A DNA stretch of 64,000 nt from Streptococcus sp. 29887 (GTDB taxonomy: Bacteria > Bacillota > Bacilli > Lactobacillales > Streptococcaceae): NCBI RefSeq assembly GCF_032595075.1, contig NZ_CP118735.1, positions 1,516,001-1,580,000 of the forward strand, in the 5' to 3' direction. A program made the position numbers and the translations under genes. Positions within the stretch are counted from its first letter, which is position 1. The number at the start of each line of letters is the position of its first letter. The notes below the pieces were generated by a model. It had not been told where the DNA came from. It was given only the letters and a program-made list of their open reading frames with translations, and did no database searches. This document shows positions 15,411-28,484 of this stretch, piece after piece.

Positions 15411-16157
15411 TTATCCAAAATGGAGTTGTTCAAATAGATCTTCCAAGTCGGCAATGATCTCTTGATGAAAATCCTTATAATAGGTTTTCTGGTCAGAATC
15501 TGGCAGTTTTTCAATATCTGCTAAAATGGCCTGATAGCGTCGTAGAAGGTTCTTACCAGCCACTTTATCTATCTCATCCATTTCACCGATACCTGCTGCA
15601 ATGTCATCTAAACTGTCATATTTTGTCAGCATAGCCTCAGTCCACTCCCGCTTGTCCTTGTTGAGAGTGACAATCTTTTCTGTCAGCCATTCTTCATAAC
15701 TTTCCTCTTCTGTCAAAGACTGGCTCGCAGTAGCCTTAGGCACTCGGTCGGATTTACTAGAACGAAGGTAATTCCGATAAAACCAAACGGCAAAAAGAAT
15801 GACTAGAATGATATTGACTGGAAAAACAAAGCTAAGGGTGAACAGTACGGTCAGCCACAAGATCAACTTGACATTTCTTGCCGCCTGCTCTGCACGTCTG
15901 TTCTTCTCCTCCCACTCGTCCAATATAGCCTGGGCTTGTGCAGTATAGGTTTCAACCAATTTTGCCAGTCGGACCTTTTTCTCTGGGTCATCTTCCAACT
16001 CCATAGCCAAATAGGCTTGATTGGCTCGAGCCTTGGCTGCTTCATAGGTCTGAACTGTCGCCAAATAGGCCGCATTGCTATTCATCTGATTCAGCAAGCG
16101 GTCCGTCTGCCCTTTGATAAAAGTCCGATCTCTTGATGTTAATTTACGGTAAGGCAT
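15411..16157 (-). CDS. Uncharacterised membrane protein with coiled-coil flanks (248 aa)
   Basis: Not recognised as a named family. Residues 1-95 are charged and helical (likely coiled coil). Residues 97-133 hold a pair of hydrophobic segments (LILWLTVLFTLSF, IILVILFAVWFY), and residues 145-248 are again acidic and helical. This suggests two cytoplasmic arms on a hairpin anchor. The ATG at 16157 follows GGGAGGGG. Two tiny membrane-protein genes lie just upstream on the same strand, making a likely three-gene unit that ends at the 15374-15409 terminator. Confidence 0.7.
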   Translation of the reverse strand: MPYRKLTSRDRTFIKGQTDRLLNQMNSNAAYLATVQTYEAAKARANQAYLAMELEDDPEKKVRLAKLVETYTAQAQAILDEWEEKNRRAEQAARNVKLILWLTVLFTLSFVFPVNIILVILFAVWFYRNYLRSSKSDRVPKATASQSLTEEESYEEWLTEKIVTLNKDKREWTEAMLTKYDSLDDIAAGIGEMDEIDKVAGKNLLRRYQAILADIEKLPDSDQKTYYKDFHQEIIADLEDLFEQLHFG

Positions 16158-16531: not shown

Positions 16532-17713
16532 TTATTCCAAAAGATCTCTGTACTCAAATTCACTCATCTTAGTGTCAAGTAACCTACGAGCAATTTGATA
16601 TTCTCTAACTTCATCTTTGTTTAAATGTTTGATAGCCTTTTGTTGAAACCTCTGATAAGTATGAATAAAATCAATAATCTCCTGCCTTTCAACAAGTTCA
16701 TGGTCAAATAATTCTGGATTGAAATGAATCTTGGCTAATTTTTCCAAGGTTTCTTCGTATAAGTTATAGTGTGCCATATGCTCTGCCAATAACTCTTGAT
16801 GACAAGTCTTGGACTGAATCATGCTAACAATTTGATTGGTATATTTCACTACTTGTATATGTGAAGAAATCAAATCTGGGTCATGATCCAAAAGATGAAC
16901 TAACTTAGACTTCTCTGGATCTCTAAGTTCTACTTCGTTCGTAAAATTTTCTATACAAGCTTCAAGTCCTGAAAGAAATTCAAGGCTCTCAATATCCCTC
17001 ATCTCTGCAACCAAAACACTACTAAATTCCTCCTTCAACTCATTAAGCCTGGTGATAATCGCATAAGCATAATTTAGTTTCGTTCGCGGTTGCAACTCAT
17101 AAGAAAATGGATTTTCTAAATCCTCCATCCAAGCATCGACTCTTTCTACTAGATTCGTTACTTCTTCACGGAAGTCTTCCGAATCGATAGTTGCATACAT
17201 CATTTTACTCTCAGCCAAGTAATTTATTGGTTGCTCTTGAAAATTTAATTTTGACATAGTAAGTACAAACTCTTTTTGTTCAGGATCCCTCATTTTCACC
17301 TCATAAGTAAATTCAGACAAAATACTTATAAAACCTACATAACGGCTCATCAATGGCACATATCCCGTTGCGTAATACAACTCATCCTTAAAATGCTCCA
17401 TTTCATTTAAAATGAAATAGCCCTGTTCTAGCACATCCCTAGTTTGATATTCATAAGGACTCTTTTCTTTCAGGTTAATGATCCAATTTCTAGACTTTAA
17501 AATTAGCTGGTTATGTAATGTTAGATAATAAGATAAATTTTGAATAGGGTAGATTTTCTGCTCATCCTCCTGATTTTCAAATTCATCTTTTGCTTTTGAC
17601 TGCATATTTAAAGAGGATTCATTCTCCCCTTTATAATACAGGCTGAGTAATATAAACAATAGCGGAAAAGTGATATACCAATATTTAAAAAAGAGTATTA
17701 TTGGATGATTCAT
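16532..17713 (-). CDS. Membrane-anchored protein of unknown function coupled to type III Res (393 aa)
   Basis: No family recognised. One N-terminal membrane segment (about residues 8-24, FFKYWYITFPLLFILLSL) is followed by a long acidic, helical cytoplasmic part. The phrase EVxxRDPEx occurs twice, near residues 140 and 255, each preceded by a similar helix (LSEFTYE, IENFTNE), suggesting an internal duplication. The ATG at 17713 comes 1 nt after the res stop, and its ribosome site (GAGGGGA) lies inside the end of res. It is therefore translationally coupled and likely part of the restriction system. Base composition is AT-rich compared with res. Confidence 0.65.
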   Translation of the reverse strand: MNHPIILFFKYWYITFPLLFILLSLYYKGENESSLNMQSKAKDEFENQEDEQKIYPIQNLSYYLTLHNQLILKSRNWIINLKEKSPYEYQTRDVLEQGYFILNEMEHFKDELYYATGYVPLMSRYVGFISILSEFTYEVKMRDPEQKEFVLTMSKLNFQEQPINYLAESKMMYATIDSEDFREEVTNLVERVDAWMEDLENPFSYELQPRTKLNYAYAIITRLNELKEEFSSVLVAEMRDIESLEFLSGLEACIENFTNEVELRDPEKSKLVHLLDHDPDLISSHIQVVKYTNQIVSMIQSKTCHQELLAEHMAHYNLYEETLEKLAKIHFNPELFDHELVERQEIIDFIHTYQRFQQKAIKHLNKDEVREYQIARRLLDTKMSEFEYRDLLE

Positions 17714-17714
17714 C

Positions 17715-20700
17715 CTATCCCCTCACGATTTCTAATAATTTTTCATAGGAATCCACCACATCGTACATGTGGTCGTCCGCAATCAAACCTTTTTCTTTCA
17801 AGGCTTTGAAGTGGGCCTTGGCACACTCAATTTTTGCAAGCTCTGCCCCTTTCAGTTGCAAACTAGACATGGAACCCTTGGTTTCGGCTACAAAGTAGAC
17901 ATGCTTAACCGAACCATCTCGAAAGGCAATTGCCCAGTCAGGGTTGTAAGCACCCAGAGGGGTGGAAATCTTAAAATTGCTAGGTAATTTGGTGTAGACC
18001 ATGACATCTTCAAATTGATCCAGCTCTTCTTTGAACTTCCGCTCCGTATCCGAATCAACCTTAACATAATTATACACGCCTTTTTGCGATTCCAGTATCC
18101 GTTTGTCCGACAATTTTCCGCTTTCTGGGTTATCCGTAAAAACAGAAGTGTCAAAGGTTTCTTCCAAGATATTGTAGCGGATATGCTCAATCACCTGACT
18201 GGCCTTTTGGTCATCGATAAGTCTGCTAGCTTGTTGGATAAATGCCTCAGGGTTATAGGCGAACATGTCAAATTTGCTTGGTGAGATTTGTTTCAGAATA
18301 TGAGCAACTGTTTTTCGTTTCAACTCCGTGCGACTGGCGATTTCACCCAACAAATCATAGCGGAGTTGAATAGAAGACTTGTCCAATTCAGCCTGACGCT
18401 TACCGTCTTTATTGACCTTGAAATCCAAACCTTGCTCAGCCTTCATTTCCCTAGCCTCAGCCTCTGTAATCATATAGCTTGGCTTTTTGACAAACAGAGA
18501 CTCATTCAAGGCCTTGACAGATTTTTCAATCAACTCCTCGTCGTCAAACTCGACATAGTAGGTGGACTTGTGATGAATGCTTTCCCACAAACGTTTAAAC
18601 TCTTGACGGTTGTAGTTGTCAGGATTGATCTCTCTTGCAAAAACAACTTCCGAATCATTTTCACGCTCAATCTGGTAACGATTGGCATCGTAAATAGATT
18701 CCAAGATGTCTTTTACAGCCACTTCATAGCCAGCCAGATTTTCAGATAAAGTAAACTGACTTGTTTCTTTTTGTTCAAAGTAAGTGGTGGTCAGATTTCC
18801 CTTGCTGTCAATATAATCTTGCTTAATCAACTGGCGTTCAATCTCTTTAGCCACTTCCTTGGTGACAGTCAGTTTTTGACCAGTTTCATTTTCCAAGACC
18901 TTATTGACAAAGAGGTCCACTTCCACCTTGCTTGGTCGATCAGCCAAGATTTCCTTGAGTTCTCTTTGCAAGTTCTTTGCAAAATCCTCATAGCTTTCAT
19001 TGGCAATGACGGTCAGCTTGTTAATATTATGAACATCAGCTCCTAAGAGTTCCTCATCCTGACGGACACCTTTTTGGTCAACAGCAAGACGCATCCCACG
19101 ACCAATCTTTTGCCGTTTTTCTGTCTCCGTACCCGTATTTTTCAGAGTACAAATCTGGAAGACATTAGGATTGTCCCAGCCTTCTTTGAGGGCTGAGTGG
19201 GAGAAGATAAAGCGTACTGGCTCATCAAAGGACAGCAGACGCTCCTTGTCCTTCATAATCAAATCAAAGGCATCCTTGTCGTTGGACTGGTTGTTTTTCT
19301 TCTCAGTTGCCGATTTGTAATCCACAAACTTGACCTTGTCCGATTTTTTCACCTTATCAACGGAGAAATAACCTGCGTGAACAGGATTGCCTTCCTGATG
19401 ATTATTTAGATAATGCCAAAAGTTGCTGCCATGGAGGTTGGGATCTGCCAACAAGGCCTTGACCTGGGCTTCATATTCCTCTTCAAACATCTGGGCATAG
19501 GTGCCATTGTAGGCATCATTTTGCTCGTCGTAGCACTTGTACTTAGCTACCTCATCAATGAAGAAAAGGGATAGCACCTTGATACCTCGTTTGTAAAGGC
19601 CTTCTTCTTTTTGCAGGTGACTGGCAATGGTTTCCCGAATCTGGATACGACGGATGTCATCTTCGTTGGTTTCCCCAATCACTTCGCCCACATGGAGTTT
19701 GCGATTGGCACCGATTTGAATGGAATTTTCACCCTCACGCGCATCAAAATGACTCAAGGTCCAACCATCTTGATAGGCTGGGAGATTACCAGACTCTTCA
19801 TAGAGAGCAAAAGGCTCTTCCACCAATTTGGTTACACGCTTGACATCACCTGACTTAGTCCGCATTTCAAACTCAATTCGAGCCTTGGGTGCTCCTGATT
19901 TTTGCGGAACCAGTTCTTGCAGATAAAGGTAGCCTTGTGTACCTGTGGTAGAAGTCTGCTCCACGGTCTTAACGGCAATCTTCTTGACCAGCTTTTTATT
20001 ATAGGCGTCCAAGGCATCCAGACGATAAATCATATCGTGCTTGTCCTTATGGGTGGCTGAATAGCGGAGGGTAAATAGAGGCTTGAAGTCCTCCAAGCGT
20101 TCTTTAGTCTTTTTCCCCTCAACCGACTGAGGCTCATCGATGATCAAAATGGGATTGGTCGCTGCGATAACATCGATGGGCTTTCTCCAGCGGAAACTTT
20201 CCTGCTCGGTGTGAATGCGACGGGCATCCGCTCCAGTGGCATTAAAGGCCTGGGAGTTGATAATCATGACCTGAATATCCGAGGAATTGGCGAACTTGTC
20301 CAGCTCTCCCAAACGGCTAGAATCATAGACAAAGTAACGTGGTTTCTTGCCGTACTCCATCTGAAAATGGTCTGCCATGATCTCAAAGGACTTGAGCACC
20401 CCCTCACGAATGGCGATACTCGGCACCACAATGATAAACTTGAGCCAGCCATACTGCTTATTGAGCTCCATCAGGGTGCGGATGTAGGTATAGGTCTTCC
20501 CTGTCCCTGTCTCCATCTCAATGGTCAAATTGTAAGACGGACGACCATCCACTTTTTGGATGGATAGGTTTTCAGAAGGTTTAAGTCCATAGCGGAGCTG
20601 CTGATTTCGTACCTGCTGGCTGACAATGTCCTGCGAAAGCTGGATGGGAGCATTGCGGAAACCGATAAAATTCATATCCAGTTCCGCATCCATTCCCTGA

Positions 20701-20813
20701 CCTTTGTCCATGTGGTAGTCAAAACCGCTATGTTTGCCCTGACCAGCAAAAACATCCACAACAGAGGCCACCGCATCTAACTGAAATTGCTGCTGTTTAA
20801 ATTGAAGTTTCAT
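17715..20813 (-). CDS. res: Type III restriction enzyme, Res subunit
   Basis: ATP-dependent helicase-like restriction subunit that cuts unmodified phage or foreign DNA together with Mod. The protein is 1032 aa. Walker A is ETGTGKT at residues 101-107 and the DEPQ box at 226-229. A helicase motif VI-like segment RQKIGRGMRLAV follows, and a C-terminal PD-(D/E)xK nuclease has PD at 958-959 and ETK at 977-979. All key residues are present. The ATG at 20813 follows CGGAGGCAACCA; the frame extends further up without a better start. It overlaps the end of the SLATT-like gene by 17 nt. Confidence 0.92.
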   Translation of the reverse strand: MKLQFKQQQFQLDAVASVVDVFAGQGKHSGFDYHMDKGQGMDAELDMNFIGFRNAPIQLSQDIVSQQVRNQQLRYGLKPSENLSIQKVDGRPSYNLTIEMETGTGKTYTYIRTLMELNKQYGWLKFIIVVPSIAIREGVLKSFEIMADHFQMEYGKKPRYFVYDSSRLGELDKFANSSDIQVMIINSQAFNATGADARRIHTEQESFRWRKPIDVIAATNPILIIDEPQSVEGKKTKERLEDFKPLFTLRYSATHKDKHDMIYRLDALDAYNKKLVKKIAVKTVEQTSTTGTQGYLYLQELVPQKSGAPKARIEFEMRTKSGDVKRVTKLVEEPFALYEESGNLPAYQDGWTLSHFDAREGENSIQIGANRKLHVGEVIGETNEDDIRRIQIRETIASHLQKEEGLYKRGIKVLSLFFIDEVAKYKCYDEQNDAYNGTYAQMFEEEYEAQVKALLADPNLHGSNFWHYLNNHQEGNPVHAGYFSVDKVKKSDKVKFVDYKSATEKKNNQSNDKDAFDLIMKDKERLLSFDEPVRFIFSHSALKEGWDNPNVFQICTLKNTGTETEKRQKIGRGMRLAVDQKGVRQDEELLGADVHNINKLTVIANESYEDFAKNLQRELKEILADRPSKVEVDLFVNKVLENETGQKLTVTKEVAKEIERQLIKQDYIDSKGNLTTTYFEQKETSQFTLSENLAGYEVAVKDILESIYDANRYQIERENDSEVVFAREINPDNYNRQEFKRLWESIHHKSTYYVEFDDEELIEKSVKALNESLFVKKPSYMITEAEAREMKAEQGLDFKVNKDGKRQAELDKSSIQLRYDLLGEIASRTELKRKTVAHILKQISPSKFDMFAYNPEAFIQQASRLIDDQKASQVIEHIRYNILEETFDTSVFTDNPESGKLSDKRILESQKGVYNYVKVDSDTERKFKEELDQFEDVMVYTKLPSNFKISTPLGAYNPDWAIAFRDGSVKHVYFVAETKGSMSSLQLKGAELAKIECAKAHFKALKEKGLIADDHMYDVVDSYEKLLEIVRG

Positions 20814-21423
20814 TGGTTGCCTCCGATCCTGCATAAAAATATAACACAATAAAAATAATAATTATGAGGAACTGGGAATACATAACCACTGTATCTATAT
20901 TTATATAGTGATAAAACTTGTTTTCCCTAAAGTTCTTTGACTCTATATACTTTTTATTATCTTCACAAAATCTATCAACTGATGAATGATTTTCTTCCCC
21001 TTGCAAGCAAACGTGATAACTATTCATAATCTCTTCATATCTTCTAAGTTTCTCAGCATGACTTACACGAAATAGAAACAACTTTTGTAACTCAGTAATA
21101 AATCTCTCAAGTTGAATTTGATGATAATGAAATTTAATCGCTCTTTCTTTATAGTTTTGTGTTGAACAATAATATTGAATGATTAGTGAATATAGTGAAA
21201 AAGTTGCTGATATAACCAATCTTGTTTCAGTTTCATTTTGTATCAACGAATAAATGAGCATTGTCGCAGAAATGATATTCATAATCAAGAATAGTACGTC
21301 CCACAAAGCTGCATATCCTGCCAATCTTTTTCCAGCAGCAATTCGAGCATTTCGGACAATATTGAGTGAATTTAACTTTTTATTTATTCTCTCTGATATT
21401 GAAATTTGTAAATAATTGTTCAT
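20797..21423 (-). CDS. SLATT-domain-like membrane protein between mod and res
   Basis: A 208-aa protein. An N-terminal amphipathic helix with basic residues (NARIAAGKRLAGY) leads into two membrane segments at about 40-62 and 70-88. After these comes NYKERAIKFHYHQIQLERF, a pattern matching SLATT domains. A third membrane segment lies near the C-terminus (FLIIIIFIVLYFY). SLATT proteins are predicted pore-forming effectors in prokaryotic conflict systems (established family prediction). It starts 4 nt after the mod stop and overlaps the res start by 17 nt, so it belongs to the restriction operon. It is more AT-rich than mod or res. The family call is by eye only. Confidence 0.65.
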   Translation of the reverse strand: MNNYLQISISERINKKLNSLNIVRNARIAAGKRLAGYAALWDVLFLIMNIISATMLIYSLIQNETETRLVISATFSLYSLIIQYYCSTQNYKERAIKFHYHQIQLERFITELQKLFLFRVSHAEKLRRYEEIMNSYHVCLQGEENHSSVDRFCEDNKKYIESKNFRENKFYHYINIDTVVMYSQFLIIIIFIVLYFYAGSEATNETSI

Positions 21424-21427
21424 ACCC

Positions 21428-23458
21428 CTACACCACCTTCACTTTGGTATTTGGGGCTTCTTCTTTGAAGATTTGACCGAGGTTGATTTTGGCTGCGGAG
21501 TTGGCGAAGGATTCATCCTTGAAGACCGCACGAAGTGGCTCTTCTTTAGCGATTTGGCGGAGGACGCTTTCTGAAATTTCATCGGCAAAGCAGGCTATCA
21601 AGGCACCGTCTGCTACATTGTAAATGTCTGTGCCGTCAATTTGAGTTTTAACGATTGGAAGGGATAGCTCCATCCCCCAGGTCAGCATAATCTGGAAGAG
21701 GAGGTCAAGGTCTGTCCGACCGTCTTTGATATTGGAAACACTGTCAAAAAGACTTTCTTGGCTAAAGCTGTCTGGTGTTTGGCTGACATCCTTGAAGTTT
21801 GAACTGTCTAGCTTATAAGCTCTAAAACCAAAGTCTTGCTTGCCGACGGTTTCAGGATGTTCTTCCTGAATCTTTTTAGCAGCCCGACGAATCCGCTCAC
21901 GAGAAATCTGGTCAATGGTTTGATAGCCAGCCTCCTTGGCAGCTGACTTGTCTGCCACTTGTTCATCCAACGTACAAAGAATGTACTTACGATTACCACC
22001 GTCTTCAGCATTCAACTGCATGACTGCATCAGCTGTGGTTGCAGAGCCAGCGAAGAAGTCGAGGATAACTGAATCTGTCCCTAATTTTATGTCACAAAGC
22101 ATTTTTATCAACTTAATTGTTTTTGGGAAATCAAAATAAGTTTTATTATCGAATAGACGATTTAATTCAATTTTCCCATTAGAAGTATCAATATCTATAT
22201 AATTAGTGAACTGCTGATTTTTGGTTCCCTCATCATCTATACGTTCTTTTTGATAAAAATAATATCCTTGATCCTCCTGTACAAATATTAATTCACTCTT
22301 ATACTCTTTTAGAAATTTTTCTGCGCTCCATCTCCATACACGTTGATTATCATATTTTGAGTTATACTTAGGTACCACTCGTACAAAACCTCTAGTTAGT
22401 AGATTTTGACCTTCTTTACTCAAAACGATCTCATAGCCAGAATCACCTAGAACTTTCTCATCAAGGATCTTCACATTTGCTGAAAATGGGTTGTAATAAA
22501 TTGAATATGCCAGATTTGGTCGATTATCAATATGGAACGAAGCAGTACCGTTATGCAATGGATAACCCTTTTTATACCTTGAAATCGAATCAACTTGATC
22601 ATATTTTTTCAAATCAACTTGAACCTTTTTTGAATTAATCTCAAGTTCATTAATATTTTTAGAGTATAGTAATATGTTTTCAAATGAATTTTTTACAAAT
22701 TTATCCATTTGCCGCCCTTTTTTATTATTATGCCAGCAAAAATTTGTAACAAAATTCTCTTCCCCAAATATCTCATCACAGATAGCTTTGAGGTTGGCTT
22801 GTTCGTTATCGTCAATGGAGATAAAGATAACGCCACTGTCTTTGAGGAGGTTGCGGGCAAGGACTAGGCGAGGGTACATCATATTGAGCCAGTCAGAGTG
22901 ATAGCGGGCGGAGGATTTTTCATTCTTGGTCAAGCCCACCCGTTGCAAACCGTCCTCATCTCGCAGATCCATTTCATCTGCCAGTTCTTCCTCGCTCATC
23001 TGGAATTTATCTGAATATACAAAGTCCTTGCCTGTATTGTATGGCGGATCGATGTAAATCATATCAATCTTGCCCAGATAAGACTCCTGCAAGACCTTGA
23101 GGACTTCCAAGTTGTCCCCTGTTATAAAGACATTTTCAGACTTGTCAAAGTCAACACTTTCCTCAAGATCTGGGCGAAGGGTCTGGCTGGTCGGTTTACC
23201 TGCCTCCGCAATCGCTCCGCGTTTGCCGACCCAGGTAAACTCATAAGACTCCCGCCCCTCAACAATCTCTCTTGAAAGGAATTGGCGTAGCTTGTCAAAG
23301 TCAATAGCTGGACGCAACCTGCCATTTTCATCACTACTTTCTGTTAGAACCTCAGGAAAAAGCTGACCAATCTTTGCAATATTGTCTGATAAAATATCTT
23401 TTGAAGTCAGGTCTAGCTTTTCAACTTGAGTGTATTCTCCAAACTTTGCTGTGCTCAT
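21428..23458 (-). CDS. mod: Type III DNA adenine methyltransferase, Mod subunit
   Basis: Site-specific N6-adenine methyltransferase that recognises the target for both modification and restriction. The protein is 676 aa. Catalytic DPPY is at residues 137-140 and the SAM-binding FAGS (FxGxx) at 469-472, the beta-class order usual for type III Mod. The central target-recognition part (roughly 240-440) is AT-rich compared with the ends, as expected for a variable, exchanged domain. No simple sequence repeat suggesting phase variation was seen. The ATG at 23458 follows AAGGAGATTACC. It is the first gene of the mod-SLATT-res-393aa operon. Confidence 0.93.
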   Translation of the reverse strand: MSTAKFGEYTQVEKLDLTSKDILSDNIAKIGQLFPEVLTESSDENGRLRPAIDFDKLRQFLSREIVEGRESYEFTWVGKRGAIAEAGKPTSQTLRPDLEESVDFDKSENVFITGDNLEVLKVLQESYLGKIDMIYIDPPYNTGKDFVYSDKFQMSEEELADEMDLRDEDGLQRVGLTKNEKSSARYHSDWLNMMYPRLVLARNLLKDSGVIFISIDDNEQANLKAICDEIFGEENFVTNFCWHNNKKGRQMDKFVKNSFENILLYSKNINELEINSKKVQVDLKKYDQVDSISRYKKGYPLHNGTASFHIDNRPNLAYSIYYNPFSANVKILDEKVLGDSGYEIVLSKEGQNLLTRGFVRVVPKYNSKYDNQRVWRWSAEKFLKEYKSELIFVQEDQGYYFYQKERIDDEGTKNQQFTNYIDIDTSNGKIELNRLFDNKTYFDFPKTIKLIKMLCDIKLGTDSVILDFFAGSATTADAVMQLNAEDGGNRKYILCTLDEQVADKSAAKEAGYQTIDQISRERIRRAAKKIQEEHPETVGKQDFGFRAYKLDSSNFKDVSQTPDSFSQESLFDSVSNIKDGRTDLDLLFQIMLTWGMELSLPIVKTQIDGTDIYNVADGALIACFADEISESVLRQIAKEEPLRAVFKDESFANSAAKINLGQIFKEEAPNTKVKVV

Positions 23459-23512: not shown

Positions 23513-23542
23513 TTGTCAAACGATTTTAGTTTGTGATATAAT
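23513..23542 (+). promoter_or_regulatory. Promoter of antisense RNA 1
   Basis: TTGTCA at 23513-23518, an 18-bp spacer and TATAAT at 23537-23542, with an upstream TG. The same 30-bp block recurs at 23958-23987 with one change (GATATAAT to GGTATAAT). Confidence 0.85.
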
Positions 23543-23548
23543 AGTTTC

Positions 23549-23664
23549 GAAAAAAGGATTGAGCGCCAACTCAATCCCAGTAGAACCGCTTTAAAGACGG
23601 TGGCTCATTTTTAACTATTCAGAAATAGCCGTTACTAGCCAAAGTATTGACGGCTATTTCTTTT
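23549..23664 (+). ncRNA. Putative antisense antitoxin RNA 1
   Basis: Predicted about 116-nt RNA from the promoter at 23513-23542 to a terminator with an 11-bp stem (GAAATAGCCGT / ACGGCTATTTC) followed by TTTT. It is complementary to the 3' end of the toxin mRNA, covering the last codons of the 35-aa toxin frame and its terminator. That resembles the TxpA/RatA arrangement of Bacillus. It is inferred from promoter and terminator positions only. Confidence 0.65.
23550..23578 (-). terminator. Terminator of toxin mRNA 1
   Basis: On the minus strand GGATTGAG-loop-CTCAATCC is followed by TTTTTT. It overlaps the first bases of antisense RNA 1, so both RNAs share this hairpin in complementary form. 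Confidence 0.8.
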
Positions 23665-23761
23665 GGTCATCATCTTTGAAGATTTTATAGCACAACCCTA
23701 TCAAGGCGATGGTAAAACCACCAAAACTCAATAAAGTTTGTACCACTTCAAACGCTGTCAA
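23654..23761 (-). CDS. Putative type I holin-like toxin 1 (35 aa)
   Basis: A 35-codon frame begins at TTG (23761), 10 nt after a strong site (AAAGGGGG). The product has the TAFEVVQTLLSFGGF N-terminus, one membrane span (about 10-26) and a charged tail (KIFKDDDQKK). This resembles the small 'putative holin-like toxin' family common in Firmicutes. Its promoter has -10 TATAAT at 23898-23893. An antisense RNA overlaps its 3' end. It is likely a type I toxin-antitoxin module; activity is inferred. Confidence 0.65.
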   Translation of the reverse strand: MTAFEVVQTLLSFGGFTIALIGLCYKIFKDDDQKK

Positions 23762-23892
23762 AAGATTGTTACCCCCTTTCCGTCAGATTTTGATGAGTTG
23801 CTCATAGGCATCACCGTCCTCTCACTTAGAAAGTAACCACCGTCTTTCTCCTACATCCATTCATGGATACAGGAGCACTTTTCTACTGTTCT

Positions 23893-23898
23893 ATTATA
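23893..23898 (-). promoter_or_regulatory. -10 box of toxin 1 promoter
   Basis: Extended -10 TGGTATAAT on the minus strand, inside a block (TATAATAGAACAGTAGAAAAG-like, 20 bp) that is repeated before toxin 2 at 24350. The leader to the toxin start is about 130 nt. Confidence 0.65.
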
Positions 23899-23957
23899 CC
23901 ATGTTTTTTTACAGAATTCACCTGGATTTTAATGCTTACTAAAATTTCATGTAGCAT

Positions 23958-23987
23958 TTGTCAAACGATTTTAGTTTGTGGTATAAT
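23958..23987 (+). promoter_or_regulatory. Promoter of antisense RNA 2
   Basis: TTGTCA at 23958-23963, an 18-bp spacer and TATAAT at 23982-23987 with TGG before it. It is nearly identical to the promoter of antisense RNA 1. Confidence 0.85.
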
Positions 23988-23993
23988 GGTTTT

Positions 23994-24170
23994 GAAAAAG
24001 GGATTGAGCGTCAACTCAATCCCAGTATCGTTTCCTTCCGTTTTCGAGAAACGACCTCAAACAGTCTCCCAGACTGTTTGAGCATTTTAAAGACGGGACG
24101 AATGAAGATTACAGTCAACCTGCTAGTTCACTCGGTCAAAGTTTCGTAGCGGTTGGCTGTCTTTTATTTT
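23994..24170 (+). ncRNA. Putative antisense antitoxin RNA 2
   Basis: Predicted about 175-nt RNA ending at a stem ACAGTCAACC / GGTTGGCTGT (24111-24160) followed by CTTTTATTTTTT. It carries an extra perfect 12-bp hairpin at 24056-24082 (CTCAAACAGTCT / AGACTGTTTGAG) that module 1 lacks. Its 3' end overlaps the last codons of the 30-aa toxin frame by a few bases. Inferred from signals only. Confidence 0.6.
23995..24023 (-). terminator. Terminator of toxin mRNA 2
   Basis: Minus-strand stem GGGATTGAG / CTCAATCCC followed by TTTTT. It is the counterpart of the module 1 terminator with one loop base changed. Confidence 0.8.
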
Positions 24171-24256
24171 TTACGATTGTTAAAAATAAATGTCAGTAGC
24201 ACGATTAGTAACGTGCCAAACTGAAACATCAGCCCAAGGGCCTCTGCGACAGACAT
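24164..24256 (-). CDS. Putative type I holin-like toxin 2 (30 aa)
   Basis: A 30-codon frame opens at an ATG (24256) with AAAGG 8 nt upstream. The sequence begins MSVAEALGLMFQFGTL, spans the membrane once and ends FNNRKK, typical of the small holin-like toxin family. It lies in the same promoter / antisense / terminator frame as toxin 1. Sequence similarity between the two peptides is limited to the pattern A-E-x-hydrophobic plus F-G, so they are related modules with different toxins. Confidence 0.7.
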   Translation of the reverse strand: MSVAEALGLMFQFGTLLIVLLTFIFNNRKK

Positions 24257-24344
24257 TGCGGCAAACCTTTCTAGTTCGGTACTGCATAGGCACCACCTCC
24301 CAAAATAGATTTCCACCCCGCTTTTGGAACTTTTCTACTGTTCT

Positions 24345-24350
24345 ATTATA
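24345..24350 (-). promoter_or_regulatory. -10 box of toxin 2 promoter
   Basis: Extended -10 TGGTATAAT on the minus strand. The following AGAACAGTAGAAAAG is identical to that before toxin 1. Confidence 0.65.
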
Positions 24351-24386
24351 CCATATTCTCCACAGAATTTACTGTGGATTTTTTTT

Positions 24387-24525
24387 GAACCTGTATTCAC
24401 TTGTGAAGTGCTTTCATATAAGTAATAGTTTTTTGAAGAAATACTGGCTATATTTTGAAAAAACTAACGATGAGTAGCTTAAAAACTAGCCTTAGATGAA
24501 GGTGCTGAACTGTGAATGCTGGTTC
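24387..24525. repeat. MITE-like dispersed repeat, copy 1
   Basis: A 139-bp element that begins GAACCTGTATTCAC and ends with a decayed inverted copy (GTGAATGCTGGTTC). It closely matches the element at 37418-37578, including the internal ACTAACGATGAGTAGCT and CTAGCCTTAGATG. No open frame of its own is seen. Its right end forms the C-terminus and stop codon of the DUF4391 gene. Confidence 0.8.
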
Positions 24526-25189
24526 TCAACTGTTGGATTTCTTCTTCTAGGGCTTTGTAGGCCTTTCGAAGCTCCATTTGTTTGCGCATGGCTTTTTCGG
24601 CAAACATCTTTTTCTTGAGCTGGGCTGCTTGCTTTTCCATTGCTGCTAAGCGTTCCGTCTGCTCAATCTGTTCTTTGATAGAAGCTTCGCCTCCGACCAG
24701 TTCTTCTTCCCCCGCTTGTTTGACCAAGTTTTCATAAAACTGGTCCAAGTCTCTTTCTTGGTAGGTCAATGCCAGAGGTTTATCTGTTTGAAAGTGACGA
24801 ACAATCTTAAAATTCCGACCCTCTCTCGATTGCGCCAGCTTTTCCTTAAAATGAATCAAATACTGGCTTGTCCCATCTGGAAATACCAGATGAAAGAGGG
24901 TGTAAAATCCCAGATAAGTGTCCAGCTCTGCTAGTAAGTGCGGGTCTAGTTGCTGACTCAAGAGATCAATCCGAAGGACGATGATTTGCTGAATGGTCTT
25001 ACCCGCTGGAATGGGGAGGGTCTTGGCATCTAGTTGATGGGTAGCGGTAATCTGACCGATTTGTTGCCGGAGGAGCTGCTTATCAGCTGTAGACAGGCCA
25101 AAATTATCTAGAAAGTCCTTGTTGCCTTTTTGATAAGGCTTGTAGAGGACTTTGGGTCTTGGAATTAGAGTAGATGGTAAAAATGGCAT
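24479..25189 (-). CDS. DUF4391 domain protein beside SNF2-type helicase
   Basis: A 236-aa protein of the DUF4391 type, function unknown; the family is repeatedly found beside helicases and methyltransferases. The N-terminal two thirds are globular (LPSTLIPRPKVLYKPY, DLDQFYENLV). Residues about 160-222 form a charged coiled coil (LAAMEKQAAQLKKKM). The ATG at 25189 is 1 nt after the helicase stop with GGAG 9 nt upstream, so the two are coupled. The last 15 residues are encoded by the inserted repeat (24479-24525), so the native C-terminus has been replaced. Confidence 0.75.
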   Translation of the reverse strand: MPFLPSTLIPRPKVLYKPYQKGNKDFLDNFGLSTADKQLLRQQIGQITATHQLDAKTLPIPAGKTIQQIIVLRIDLLSQQLDPHLLAELDTYLGFYTLFHLVFPDGTSQYLIHFKEKLAQSREGRNFKIVRHFQTDKPLALTYQERDLDQFYENLVKQAGEEELVGGEASIKEQIEQTERLAAMEKQAAQLKKKMFAEKAMRKQMELRKAYKALEEEIQQLRTSIHSSAPSSKASF

Positions 25190-25190
25190 C

Positions 25191-28100
25191 TTAGTCTTCT
25201 CCTTTCAAAACGGCAAAGAAGGCCATTAGTTCAAAATCATCACTTCCGTCCACCCCGCTATCCATAAAGTCAATGGTATCTGACGTGAAGAGGGACTCAT
25301 TGAAGGTCTCCTCATCACTCTCCACGAGATTTTCAAGACTTCTTTGCAAGAGGTCGGAGTAATGCTCCATTTTGGCACCATCATCAGTGGCACGATTGTA
25401 GGTTGCCACCAAATCTTTCTCAGGCTGATTTTTGCCCTTGGTAATCATGCGTAGGTGCTCCAGCAATGCCTTGGTATCTGCAATGGAGTAGACCGTTTCT
25501 CCCTGGTCACTGATATAGACCAGATAGTAGGGATGAAGACGATTTTTCTTACTGAGATGGGTCTGGTGGGCAATATTCTTCAAGAGGAAGATGGCTCCAG
25601 CTGGTTGACCTTGCCCTGCCTGCACCACTGCTTGAAGACCTTTAGGCATCGCTTCTAACTCTGGATGTTTGGCTAAATAGCTGAGCAGGTCCATACGGTA
25701 GTCTTCCAAACCTAGATCCATAATGGAAATCCCCTCATTCATATCTTCCAAATCAACGACCTCTGTCTGGAGGCGTTCGAGCTGTTTCTTCCGATAATTA
25801 TTGTCCTCGATTTCCTCGTTGGTCAAGACATTGTCATCAGCCGTTGAAGTCAGAACTGAGATTTTCATTCTGGATTCCACACGCGCCTTGAGATCGATAT
25901 AAGTGTCCAAAGCAATGTTTGGCCAAAAATTGACCAGCTGGATGTATTTGTTCTGACTACCGATACGATCTACCCGTCCAAAGCGCTGGACAATACGGAC
26001 AGGATTCCAGTGAATGTCATAGTTAATCATGGTATCAGCATCCTGCAGGTTTTGACCTTCTGAGATAACATCTGTCGCAATCAAGACATCAATTTCTCGA
26101 TGATCATCAGGATAAAGCAAGTCCTTCTGCTTGGATCTCGGTGAAAAATAGGTCAGAAGGGTGTTCAAGTCCTTATTTTTGAGTGGCAAAGTGGTCGAAA
26201 AGCCTTTTGTCCCTGAAATCTGGGCTGTGTGAAGTCCATACTTATCCAAGAGATAATGGCTAATATTTTTATAAAGATAGTCTGTTGTCGTCGCAAAGGC
26301 TGAGAAGATAATCACTTTCTTGTTATCTGGATTGATTGGCTGTGCCAATTTGTCATCAATCAAGTTAAACAAGGTCTGTAATTTCTGATCTTCCTGTGGT
26401 GTGATTAAATTGACCAGATTTTCTAATTCTCTCAACACTGTTTGGTCAGCCTGTAAATCCCTCTTCCAAGATAGGTAGTCCATATCTGCCAGCTTGATAG
26501 GGAATTTCTTTCCAACAAAGAAATCCGTGTTGCTATCTTCGACATCAAAATCATCTTCAGCCAACTCTTGCAACTGAACATTCCCTTCACCACCTGCAAC
26601 TTCAAACTCTTCTATGCTCAGAATTGTTTTGTCTACATAAGCCTTGACCACCTCAATCAAGGTATAGCGAAAGGCCTCGATAGAACTTTCCAAGCGTTTC
26701 AAGAGGTTGATCATCATCAGTTTCTTAATTCCCGTTTCCCGTCCAAGCTGGGTCAAACCTTGCCCTTCCGCTTTTTCATAGCGGGAACGTTTTGAGGGAT
26801 GAATGAAAAGACTTGGCTGATAGATTGTTAATTGAAGTTGGTCTAACAGAGCATAAATCCGTTCATAAGTAATATCTCTTCGATTGACCGTCAAGTCTGG
26901 ATAGAAGTTTTTAGGGGCCAGTCGTTCTGGAAAATCACCAATCGCATTTCTATCATAAAATTGTCGGATATGCTTACGGCTTCGTGCAATGGTCACGCTA
27001 TCAAGGACTTTAAAGAAATCAAAATCAAGTCTATCTAGTAAAGCTGCTGTCGTCCGTGATTCTGCTGGTAGCTCTGCCCATTGATTATAAGCAGCCTGTG
27101 CCATACGGAAGATATCATTGATGGAGGATTTGGTATCTAATTTGGCATCAAATTGTGTCGCATCGCCCTCATAGGCTAGGGCAATTTGATTTTTCAAATC
27201 ATTAAAGCGATTATTGACAGGTGTAGCAGACAACATAAGAACCTTTGTCGGCACACCGCTTTTGATAATCCGATTCATCAAGCGGGAATAGCGGTTTTCA
27301 CGACCTTCTTCAATCTCGGCATCAGATGATCCACCGTTTCTAAAATTGTGTGATTCATCAATAACCACCAAATCATAGGTATCCCAACGATTAAGTGCTA
27401 AATCAATTCCATTTGATATTCCCTTGTCACGGCTGAGGTCTGTATGGTAGAGAACATCATACTGGAGATAGCGGTCGTAAATGGGATTGTTGACATAGTC
27501 GTGACGGTACATGTTCCAGTTATGCTCCAACTTTTTGGGACAAAGAACCAAGATCCGTTTGCCTCGATAGGCATAGTAGGTCATGACAGCAAGAGCTGTA
27601 AAGGTTTTTCCTAGACCGACCGAATCCGCCAAGATACAGCCGTTGTATCGTTCCAATTTTGAAATCAGCGACTTGACCGCATCCTTTTGAAAATCATACA
27701 AGAGATTCCAAATCTTGGTTTCCTTATACTGAACATGTTCATTTGGCAGTTGGTCTTGATTGACATCTTCTAAAAATTCACTAAAGATATTATAAAGCAT
27801 GACATAGTAGAGAAACTCTGGCGAATGTTCCTTATGGGCCAGGGTCAGATTTTCTAAAACTTCCTCGGTCACATCACGGAAATATTCATCATTTTCCCAG
27901 TAGTCTTCAAAGTTTCGTAGATAGGTCAAACTTTGTGGCTCTGTGTAGAGATTGCGACTGGACTTAAAAAGTGAATTTTCATAACCCAGTTCCTTACGGT
28001 CAAAGTTTTTCAGCTTGTCTACTGCGATGATTTGACCGTTGTCAATCCGAATGCCGTTGTCAATTTCTTCATGGACATTGACAGACTTAAACTGAGCCTT

Positions 28101-28427
28101 TCGACGTACCCAGTCGGCACATTCTCTAGCAAGAGATTTTTGGGTCAGCTCATTCATCAATTTGAGCTCGTACTCAGCTCCAAATATAGATGATTCTCGC
28201 TGTTTCTTTGGTATGGTGTATTCGCGGTACTCTTTCGCAACTTCATTGGTCGTGAAGGTTGGACTTGTAAAAATAAATTGCAGCTCTTCAATTTGCTCGA
28301 GCTCTTCTTTTAAAGACTGATAAGCAAACATGGAAAAAGTTGCTGCAGCCATTTTTACTTTACTGCCTTTTCCTAAATGTTCTTTTAACTGATCTCCTAA
28401 GAGAACCAGTCGGTTATCAATTTCCAT
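25191..28427 (-). CDS. Large SNF2/DEAH-type helicase, PLD-helicase family
   Basis: A 1078-aa superfamily 2 helicase. Walker A DSVGLGKT is at residues 268-275 and DESH at 357-360. Motif III LMLSATPVNNR and motif VI QRFGRVDRIGSQN follow; the core is complete. The first 150 residues resemble the phospholipase D-like part of this family, but no HxK(x4)D catalytic motif is visible, so nuclease activity there is doubtful. The ATG at 28427 follows AAGGAGATTTT; an in-frame ATG farther up lies in the promoter region. With DUF4391 it forms a two-gene unit that looks like a defence or DNA-repair module. Function is inferred. Confidence 0.8.
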   Translation of the reverse strand: MEIDNRLVLLGDQLKEHLGKGSKVKMAAATFSMFAYQSLKEELEQIEELQFIFTSPTFTTNEVAKEYREYTIPKKQRESSIFGAEYELKLMNELTQKSLARECADWVRRKAQFKSVNVHEEIDNGIRIDNGQIIAVDKLKNFDRKELGYENSLFKSSRNLYTEPQSLTYLRNFEDYWENDEYFRDVTEEVLENLTLAHKEHSPEFLYYVMLYNIFSEFLEDVNQDQLPNEHVQYKETKIWNLLYDFQKDAVKSLISKLERYNGCILADSVGLGKTFTALAVMTYYAYRGKRILVLCPKKLEHNWNMYRHDYVNNPIYDRYLQYDVLYHTDLSRDKGISNGIDLALNRWDTYDLVVIDESHNFRNGGSSDAEIEEGRENRYSRLMNRIIKSGVPTKVLMLSATPVNNRFNDLKNQIALAYEGDATQFDAKLDTKSSINDIFRMAQAAYNQWAELPAESRTTAALLDRLDFDFFKVLDSVTIARSRKHIRQFYDRNAIGDFPERLAPKNFYPDLTVNRRDITYERIYALLDQLQLTIYQPSLFIHPSKRSRYEKAEGQGLTQLGRETGIKKLMMINLLKRLESSIEAFRYTLIEVVKAYVDKTILSIEEFEVAGGEGNVQLQELAEDDFDVEDSNTDFFVGKKFPIKLADMDYLSWKRDLQADQTVLRELENLVNLITPQEDQKLQTLFNLIDDKLAQPINPDNKKVIIFSAFATTTDYLYKNISHYLLDKYGLHTAQISGTKGFSTTLPLKNKDLNTLLTYFSPRSKQKDLLYPDDHREIDVLIATDVISEGQNLQDADTMINYDIHWNPVRIVQRFGRVDRIGSQNKYIQLVNFWPNIALDTYIDLKARVESRMKISVLTSTADDNVLTNEEIEDNNYRKKQLERLQTEVVDLEDMNEGISIMDLGLEDYRMDLLSYLAKHPELEAMPKGLQAVVQAGQGQPAGAIFLLKNIAHQTHLSKKNRLHPYYLVYISDQGETVYSIADTKALLEHLRMITKGKNQPEKDLVATYNRATDDGAKMEHYSDLLQRSLENLVESDEETFNESLFTSDTIDFMDSGVDGSDDFELMAFFAVLKGED

Positions 28428-28458
28428 AAAATCTCCTTCAAATGTTGATTCCAGATGT

Positions 28459-28464
28459 AGTATA
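28459..28464 (-). promoter_or_regulatory. -10 box of the helicase-DUF4391 unit
   Basis: Minus-strand extended -10 TGGTATACT about 32 bp before the helicase start. No good -35 is visible. Confidence 0.5.
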
Positions 28465-28484
28465 CCATCTTTAGACAAGGATTT

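Follow-up and report, generated by a model that had tools for sequence, protein, structure and literature searches.

SLATT proteins constitute a membrane protein family suspected of a role in cell suicide. The defence system DRT10 consists of a UG17 reverse transcriptase (RT), a non-coding RNA (ncRNA) and a SLATT protein, for which a role as membrane effector was proposed by the authors and whose deletion abolishes DRT10 defence (PMC12632851). A precedent for an effector guarded by a restriction-modification (R-M) system is PrrC, associated with the type I system EcoprrI (PMC3710099, PMC12707154). The presence of defence genes within R-M operons is already known: such genes have been described as embedded within other defence operons (Payne 2024 preprint), and DarTG2 has been located between hsdS and hsdR (PMC12255303). 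Furthermore, the type III systems Eco86II and BspHIV possess a helicase-like ATPase 5' of mod (PMC8259958).

The locus analysed here is located within a window of 64,000 nt, i.e. the whole stretch of Streptococcus sp. 29887 DNA under study (contig NZ_CP118735.1, positions 1,516,001 to 1,580,000). Based on its predicted gene content, it represents a type III R-M operon of the order helicase-DUF4391-mod-res, in which a SLATT_5-encoding gene is situated between mod and res. The features, in window positions, are as follows:

25191..28478, minus strand, Snf2-type helicase, 1095 aa, located at the start of the operon (PADLOC C3a139 'HKD+Snf2')
24479..25189, minus strand, DUF4391 protein, 236 aa, 1 nt 3' of the helicase gene (PF14335, 2.2e-20)
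24164..24256, minus strand, Hol_Tox-like type I toxin candidate, 30 aa (PF16935, 2.9e-12; placed by tblastn)
23654..23761, minus strand, Hol_Tox-like type I toxin candidate, 35 aa, TTG start (PF16935, 1e-11; placed by tblastn)
21428..23458, minus strand, mod, type III methyltransferase, 676 aa (PF01555, 1.4e-31; PADLOC MTase_III, 1e-218)
20797..21423, minus strand, SLATT_5 membrane protein, 208 aa, slot occupant (Pfam, NCBIfam and PADLOC profiles)
17715..20813, minus strand, res, restriction subunit of the type III system, 1032 aa when started at the conserved ATG (PF04851, PF19778; PADLOC REase_III, 1.9e-295)
16532..17713, minus strand, 393-aa protein with an N-terminal anchor, an optional gene at this chromosomal site

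The type III R-M domain set is present in this single operon, with N6_N4_Mtase in Mod, and ResIII and RE_endonuc in Res, and profile comparison matched the res product to EcoP15I Res (4zcf; 1.5e-76). The tight packing of four minus-strand genes described in an earlier, sequence-only reading of this DNA was reproduced in full, including all coordinates: mod is followed after 4 nt by the SLATT gene, which overlaps res by 17 nt, and res is followed after 1 nt by the 393-aa gene. The 17-nt overlap results from placement of the res start at ATG 20813 and not at TTG 20849, where the listed ORF begins; homologues and DNA conservation begin at most 12 nt from this ATG. The upstream operon genes (Snf2 helicase and DUF4391) and the two Hol_Tox-like peptide genes, located between DUF4391 and mod, were overlooked in that reading. 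Among the 29 Res loci of the genus, the helicase gene is present in 22, in all of which it is accompanied by DUF4391. Phase variation of the window mod by repeats was rejected, no repeat array having been detected in mod.

The proposed SLATT-like nature of the 208-aa protein was borne out by profile searches, in which it scored above the curated cut-offs of both Pfam SLATT_5 (PF18160; 80.7 bits, cut-off 29.5) and NCBIfam NF033631 (124.5 bits, cut-off 60). Its PADLOC matches were confined to RTasSLATT models (2.3e-46); none of the PDC models in PADLOC-DB, which presumably originate from the work of Payne, was matched. Hydropathy analysis revealed hydrophobic segments at residues 34-52 and 178-196. 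The structure model, which is weak (pLDDT 68), is all-helical with helices at residues 9-62 and 67-117, and Foldseek returned no fold match for it at E < 0.001. No match was obtained in a PDB sequence search, and a search with another SLATT model, PF18183, was without any match, also among the controls.

When compared across the genus, the mod-res junction is an exchangeable slot, with SLATT as one of several alternative occupants. An insert is present at this junction in 25 of the 29 Res loci, the remaining four being empty, and the inserts represent eight unrelated sequence clusters. Eight loci carry SLATT and eight a one-helix membrane family (with an Abi_alpha-like match below cut-off), the others containing a TIR protein together with a 2TM protein, FRG, DUF6261 and further families. 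Known or candidate defence families among these occupants include the ThsB-like TIR with its 2TM partner, FRG/PDC-S15 and PDC-S32, and the PADLOC matches of non-SLATT occupants comprised PDC-S15, PDC-S32 and PDC-M50, a pattern reminiscent of a socket into which alternative back-up weapons, some of known defence types, can be plugged. At least one insert with a predicted membrane segment was observed at 17 of the 25 occupied slots. In the 21 loci of the genus that have the full set of four genes and one mod only, inserts of at least 80 aa were found at the mod-res junction in 20 cases and at the DUF4391-mod junction in none (0/21), and an ORF of this size was likewise absent from the helicase-DUF4391 junction in 21/21. 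As the last insert stops at least 64 nt before the listed res start in 9 of the 25 occupied slots, translational coupling to res is not a general property.

Comparison of near-identical backbones revealed divergence in two sharp blocks, corresponding to the middle of mod and to the slot:

22066..22748, minus strand, exchanged block 1 within mod, without DNA homology between near-identical loci
20814..21427, minus strand, exchanged block 2, corresponding to the slot and bounded by the mod stop and the res start codon

From its location and variability, we infer that block 1 is the target-recognition region of Mod. The slot difference fills precisely the interval between the two genes, mod stop to res start. 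In three empty loci, 3 nt lie between the stop of mod and the ATG of res, and the mod end ahead of inserts is nearly the same as that in empty loci, with a ribosome-binding-like sequence in the mod 3' end which may be used by any following gene. The slot is exchanged independently of the mod middle block, with slot families differing in 8 of the 10 pairs in which this block is similar. Moreover, on the Res tree, clustering is absent for SLATT and for most of the remaining occupants (for SLATT, 7 changes for 8 rows, a value as low being obtained in 317 of 500 label shuffles).

SLATT_5 was identified in 9 of 284 genus genomes, eight times between mod and res, a concentration exceeding chance, and once beside an AbiA-like RT. 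Recurrence of SLATT alongside mod-res in unrelated genomes, to which the sequence-only reading had looked for support, was confirmed within the genus, where the genes flanking these loci differ. It did not extend beyond it, since SLATT was detected by profile in the slot at 0 of 160 loci outside the genus (the best 80 of at least 578 relatives on genome contigs and the best 80 of 85 on viral contigs), and recurrence is therefore limited to one genus. These counts rest on samples of 284 genus genomes (197 of which were covered by the two earliest genus searches), 398 genomes at class level, and 80 contigs each of genome and viral origin. An order-level PF18160 search matched 17 of 395, of which only three scored above the cut-off, two being from the genus of the window. 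No SLATT match was obtained in phages, three pattern stretches in viral contigs included no relative, and the operon DNA had no match among plasmids. In the wider sample (best 80 of at least 578 and best 80 of 85), inserts were present in 25/70 genome loci and 21/74 viral-contig loci, 8 of these 46 insert-bearing loci having an insert with a membrane segment; inserts are as frequent there at DUF4391-mod as at mod-res, and some occupants match PDC-S02, PDC-S05 and PDC-S23.

With regard to RTs, an RT gene adjoins SLATT in 8 of the 10 relatives examined outside the slot (five AbiA-like, two UG17 and one UG13a, the latter on the opposite strand), as compared with 0 of 8 slot copies. Full-length AbiA RTs were not found in the window genome or the seven other slot-SLATT genomes, four of the eight yielding weaker RT matches in the AbiA search. 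The UG17 model likewise gave no match above 154 bits (versus 380 in control genome G378); its weaker matches lay in the same four genomes, those of the window genome approximately 0.5 Mb away. Directly upstream of SLATT, the gap to mod is only 4 nt, and no Rfam match was obtained in the window at gathering score. A DRT system with its RT still nearby was rejected, the neighbours being mod and res, and no full-length AbiA or UG17 RT having been detected in the eight genomes. Alignment showed that slot and RT-linked copies have intact frames and invariant residues in common. Six other distinct slot copies, which are 34-42% identical to the window SLATT, are intact at the same mod-res position; a seventh copy, L224, is identical to L225. 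On the SLATT tree, two changes are required between slot and RT-linked placement, and the slot copies group together as a single clade in 30% of the bootstrap replicates. No description of SLATT in a type III operon was found in the literature searched (titles, abstracts and partial text), within which SLATT_5 without an RT in a type III slot is apparently undescribed.

The 393-aa protein had been suggested to act as a partner of SLATT, a proposal that was discarded: its gene is present in only 3 of the 29 genus Res loci, beside the same flanking gene in all three, and two of these encode a non-SLATT slot protein, so that there is no association with SLATT. Its single N-terminal membrane anchor was corroborated by a hydrophobic segment at residues 5-23 in the hydropathy profile. 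No Pfam match was obtained, including to PF10112 (Halogen_Hydrol, XpaC-like); a distant relative in locus L011 scores 29.6 against the PF10112 cut-off of 29.8. The C-terminus shares motifs with PF10112-type proteins adjoining TelA elsewhere in the genus and appears distantly XpaC-like. The gene is probably not part of the system.

Given this anatomy, the exact slot borders, the alternative occupants and the recurrence of SLATT there without its usual RT, we tentatively favour, at slightly below an even chance, a type III R-M operon with a plug-in mod-res slot, the SLATT_5 occupant of which would be a dormant, R-M-linked abortive effector. Mod would mark self DNA and Mod-Res would cleave unmarked incoming DNA as a first line, while co-translated SLATT would remain dormant in the membrane, as an effector of the pore type. 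Failure of the Mod-Res step, blockage of Mod-Res by a phage or a build-up of DNA products would then trigger SLATT, with death or arrest of the cell as the outcome, in the manner of PrrC within EcoprrI. We hypothesise, as did the sequence-only reading, that sensing by Mod-Res triggers membrane damage. The rapid exchange of the slot, independent of DNA specificity, would be driven by phage escape from individual effectors.

That slot genes move freely among different Mod and Res backbones nevertheless argues against tight Mod-Res co-evolution, and an independent passenger gene would account for it at least as well. The slot may represent a convenient, well-expressed landing site, in which self-sufficient defence genes, without contact to Mod or Res, profit from the operon promoter and from horizontal transfer; we regard this as a substantial possibility, if short of probable. 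It accords with the scatter of occupants on the Res tree, their independence from the mod middle block, the ribosome-binding-like sequence offered by mod to any next gene, and the matches of some occupants to single-gene PADLOC candidates (PDC-S15 and PDC-S32, and in the wider sample PDC-S02, S05 and S23). Self-sufficiency is, however, difficult to reconcile with SLATT requiring an RT and an ncRNA in its studied setting (PMC12632851), neither of which fits the window locus, and a mere landing site with genus inserts keeping to one of three junctions (20/21 versus 0 and 0) despite the wide DUF4391-mod gap.

Membrane occupants might instead be non-killing helpers that tether or tune Mod-Res at the membrane for DNA entry, or restrain Res in new hosts. 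The membrane segments predicted at 17/25 occupied slots are consistent with this, and short overlaps with res at part of the loci would permit co-translational assembly, but the occupants are unrelated, several belong to enzyme or candidate-toxin families (TIR, FRG) as opposed to tethers, and loci without an insert exist, making such a role quite improbable. It is more improbable still that SLATT is a functionless leftover of a DRT-type system that has lost its RT: the RT beside 8/10 relatives outside the slot, its absence next to the window SLATT and the lack of full-length AbiA/UG17 RTs in the eight genomes would suit a remnant, but not the invariant residues shared with RT-linked copies, nor the persistence of six diverged, intact copies in the same place. 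An extension of the effector reading, which we consider unlikely as a whole, would regard SLATT_5 as a DNA-responsive membrane effector for various DNA machines, and the mod-res junction as a general effector socket with Mod-Res as the common sensor. SLATT_5 would respond to repeat cDNA in RT systems and, in the window locus, to DNA ends, restriction fragments or a stalled Mod-Res complex, and Mod-Res (with helicase and DUF4391) would drive interchangeable killers such as SLATT, one-helix membrane proteins, TIR with 2TM, and FRG.

Should the occupants depend on Mod-Res, classical type III restriction enzymes would be immune sensors of modular design whose effectors can be swapped, and the slot could be mined for new effectors; without such dependence, it is still a site at which defence genes are captured naturally and precisely. 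In either case, the slot separates SLATT_5 from RTs, providing a second, simpler setting for the question of the SLATT trigger.

In comparison with the described systems, the window locus shares with DRT10 and AbiA-like RT loci the PF18160 family, common conserved residues and the placement of a short gene for a membrane protein immediately 5' of a large partner gene. It differs in that SLATT is adjoined by mod and res, without an adjacent RT, the 4-nt gap leaving no room for an ncRNA. The resemblance to Eco86II and BspHIV is one of position, a helicase-like gene lying ahead of mod and res in many genomes; the description found of those systems includes neither DUF4391 nor a mod-res insert. 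In the socket reading it would resemble CBASS, with Mod-Res as the sensor in place of the nucleotide signals that drive interchangeable effectors there. As with PrrC in EcoprrI, the SLATT gene is embedded in an R-M operon and may provide a second line, but the effector of EcoprrI, a type I system, is a tRNA anticodon nuclease, whereas the window encodes a membrane protein in a type III system. Finally, as in the embedded cases of Payne (2024) and DarTG2, defence genes are found between R-M subunit genes; in contrast to Payne's candidates, the window SLATT matches no PDC model, and in contrast to the embedded cases generally, its slot is exchanged with exact borders among near-identical backbones.

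The four minus-strand ORFs named in the sequence-only reading, i.e. mod, a SLATT-like gene, res and a gene encoding a 393-aa protein, were found where that reading had placed them. With the two genes upstream of mod, the genes at the locus are:

28478-25191, minus strand, Snf2-type helicase of 1095 aa, upstream of mod (PADLOC C3a139, 2.6e-121)
25189-24479, minus strand, DUF4391 protein, 1 nt after the helicase gene (PF14335, 2.2e-20)
23458-21428, minus strand, mod, type III methyltransferase
21423-20797, minus strand, 208-aa SLATT_5 gene, between mod and res
res, minus strand, called mechanically from a TTG start at 20849
17713-16532, minus strand, 393-aa gene, directly after res

Mod and Res matched type III families across most of their lengths (PADLOC MTase_III, 1e-218, and REase_III, 1.9e-295, respectively), and the Res profile retrieved the EcoP15I Res structure. 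Res homologues and the conserved DNA start no more than 12 nt from the ATG at 20813; the overlap between the SLATT gene and res is therefore 17 nt, as had been claimed. Hundreds of type III systems are described as having a helicase-like gene 5' of mod (PMC8259958). The SLATT-like call for the 208-aa protein was sharpened to SLATT_5 by profile searches against Pfam PF18160 (80.7 bits, cut-off 29.5), NCBIfam NF033631 (124.5 bits, cut-off 60) and PADLOC RTasSLATT (2.3e-46). Hydropathy predicts membrane segments at residues 34-52 and 178-196, and the predicted structure is all helix (pLDDT 68); SLATT proteins are presented as predicted pores in PMC7159879.

A Res search with a threshold of E 1e-100 matched 29 of the 284 genomes sampled from the genus, and all 29 loci were read. 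Every locus contained mod and res, 22 contained the helicase and DUF4391 genes, and 25 carried an insert of at least 80 aa between mod and res. Inserts were grouped into eight blast clusters, with one member per cluster scanned for family.

Occupants of the mod-res slot (loci among the 25 occupied genus loci)
SLATT_5: 8
One-helix membrane family alone: 6
One-helix family plus Abi_alpha-like gene: 1
One-helix family plus DUF6261: 1
Abi_alpha-like alone: 3 (weak Pfam match, E 0.015, under cut-off)
FRG/PDC-S15: 2
ThsB-like TIR plus 2TM protein (PDC-M50A/B): 2 (L227, L228)
DUF6261 alone: 1
PDC-S32: 1

At least one insert had a predicted membrane segment in 17 of the 25 occupied slots. The remaining four loci had an empty slot, two of them being broken (mod in L219, res in L234).

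Two tandem Hol_Tox (PF16935) peptides are also encoded inside the window operon (23513-24384, minus strand), in units ~450 nt apart. Each unit has a terminator-like stem and, on the opposite strand, a strong promoter-like site (TTGTCA-18-TATAAT at 23513 and 23958), making the pair a candidate doubled type I toxin-antitoxin. At least one such peptide occurs in 10/29 genus loci; a single copy is left in L214, L216 and L219, where the loss seems to have occurred at 70-nt repeats.

Comparison of the window operon DNA with 10 loci revealed that slot contents are exchanged exactly. Homology stops at the mod stop codon (21418-21429) and restarts at 20813-20825 in nine of the ten, and only at 20549 in the diverged L018. 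A further gap lies inside mod, from 22695-22751 to 22065-22078; across eight loci (L017, L213-L218 and L220), Mod protein identity is 95-99% in the flanks and 21-26% in the middle block. The homologous parts of mod and res share 89-96% of their DNA sequence with the window in the eight nearest loci; the figure is 76% for the L220 res stretch and 72-79% for L018. Slot genes are preceded by a nearly identical mod end, usually with GGTGGTG, and in the no-insert loci L218, L219 and L235 the res ATG follows the mod stop by 3 nt. At the same chromosomal site as in the window, the slot encodes a one-helix protein in G124 and an FRG protein in G218. The helicase and DUF4391 genes (window 28460-24382) are absent as a pair from L213, L217 and L219, with a seamless junction in L219; the mod and res DNA of these loci still matches the window at about 89-96% identity.

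On a quick-method tree of 27 full-length Res proteins, SLATT required 7 changes for 8 rows, a value as low in 317/500 shuffles. All 12 slot labels, a count which splits the one-helix family, required 17 changes (shuffled mean 18.3; as low in 30/200), and the two FRG loci were clustered (1 change; 3/500). Among 10 pairs with mod middle blocks at least 50% identical, the slot family differed in eight and was one-helix in both members for two; slot family and mod middle block are thus not tied.

Beyond the genus, Res relatives were sampled from 80 genome contigs (the best 80 of 578) and 80 viral contigs (80 of 85). In this sample, 25/70 genome and 21/74 viral loci with a mod had a mod-res insert. 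Family scans covered 52 of the 55 inserts, leaving aside a 95-aa one and two encoded on the opposite strand. The commonest families among these best 80 and 80 contigs were AlbA_2 (7), RhuM (6), YhcG/DUF1016 (6) and Abi_C (4), with Fic, TIR, AbiV and others represented by one or two members each; SLATT was detected by profile in 0/160 of these loci. Junction counts were restricted to complete four-gene loci holding a single mod and to inserts of at least 80 aa, which excludes Hol_Tox peptides. Inserts at helicase-DUF4391, DUF4391-mod and mod-res numbered 0, 0 and 20 in the genus (n=21), 3, 13 and 12 in genome contigs (n=33; best 80 of 578) and 0, 10 and 8 in viral contigs (n=25; 80 of 85), indicating that the helicase-DUF4391 junction is nearly closed. 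The other two junctions both accept inserts outside the genus. Some loci of this type III family have two consecutive mod genes (e.g. L028, L053, L056, L079, L122 and L136).

A SLATT alignment search (E 1e-8) matched SLATT_5 in 9/284 genus genomes, eight times between mod and res (the window, G111, G026, G095, G069, G233, G255 and G206). The ninth, in G189, lies directly 5' of an AbiA-like reverse transcriptase (RT) gene (PDLC03742, 2.1e-144), and a histidyl-tRNA-synthetase-like gene precedes it (L020, 9611-11649). In a class sample, 7/398 genomes matched, two of them slot genomes of this genus. An RT gene adjoins SLATT_5 in 8 of 10 non-slot relatives (five other class genomes, G189, G378 and three plasmids), a count in which L266, read over 1.5 kb, gives no neighbour call. 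The RT is AbiA-like in L020, L252, L253, L254 and L263 and UG17 in L236 and L264, SLATT_5 being a described neighbour of UG17 RTs (PMC8934634). In L262 (G845), a UG13a-type RT gene faces SLATT_5 from the opposite strand, the usual order being tandem; no RT was seen adjacent in L265, where the upstream neighbour matches PDC-S33. A Streptococcus suis phage also gave a match of 161 nt. Searches of the eight slot-SLATT genomes yielded no AbiA or UG17 RT of full length; four contain weaker RT matches away from the operon, ~0.5 Mb away in the window genome. Within the sampled genomes, SLATT in the slot with no RT is thus a trait of this genus.

The 393-aa protein, proposed earlier as a partner in the system, was not upheld as such and was left out of it. 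Its gene occurs in 3/29 genus loci (the window, G124 and G252), with SLATT in the slot once and the one-helix family twice, and is cleanly missing from L213, L214 and L216. Searches of Pfam, NCBIfam and PADLOC placed the protein in no family. Genus proteins adjoining TelA align with its C-terminal part, and one of them scored 29.6 bits against PF10112 (cut-off 29.8). In all three loci, the gene is followed by a homologue of the 248-aa gene at window 15411-16157, whose product has no strong family and which lies after the operon in several of the loci sharing this chromosomal site. In L018 (2187-6560; G111), res is followed by a gene for a helicase-like protein of 1457 aa that has an MTES_1575 nuclease domain; the operon end thus also accepts optional genes.

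We infer that the slot protein is an effector, and SLATT may be triggered by the status or products of Mod-Res. A close second reading is that SLATT is a passenger gene, consistent with the free exchange of slot genes and with the lack of translational coupling in 9/25 occupied loci. However, genus inserts keep to a single junction, and the SLATT of DRT10 is described as functional only with its RT and ncRNA, control by cDNA being proposed by its authors (PMC12632851). On these two grounds, triggering by Mod-Res appears slightly preferable to a passenger role.

R-M operons with embedded defence genes have already been described (PMC12255303, citing a Payne 2024 preprint); in the literature searched, mostly at the level of titles and abstracts and with few subscription papers covered, no paper was found that describes a mod-res slot or places SLATT within a type III operon. 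The proposed triggering of SLATT would follow the manner in which EcoprrI is described to guard PrrC (PMC3710099, PMC12707154).
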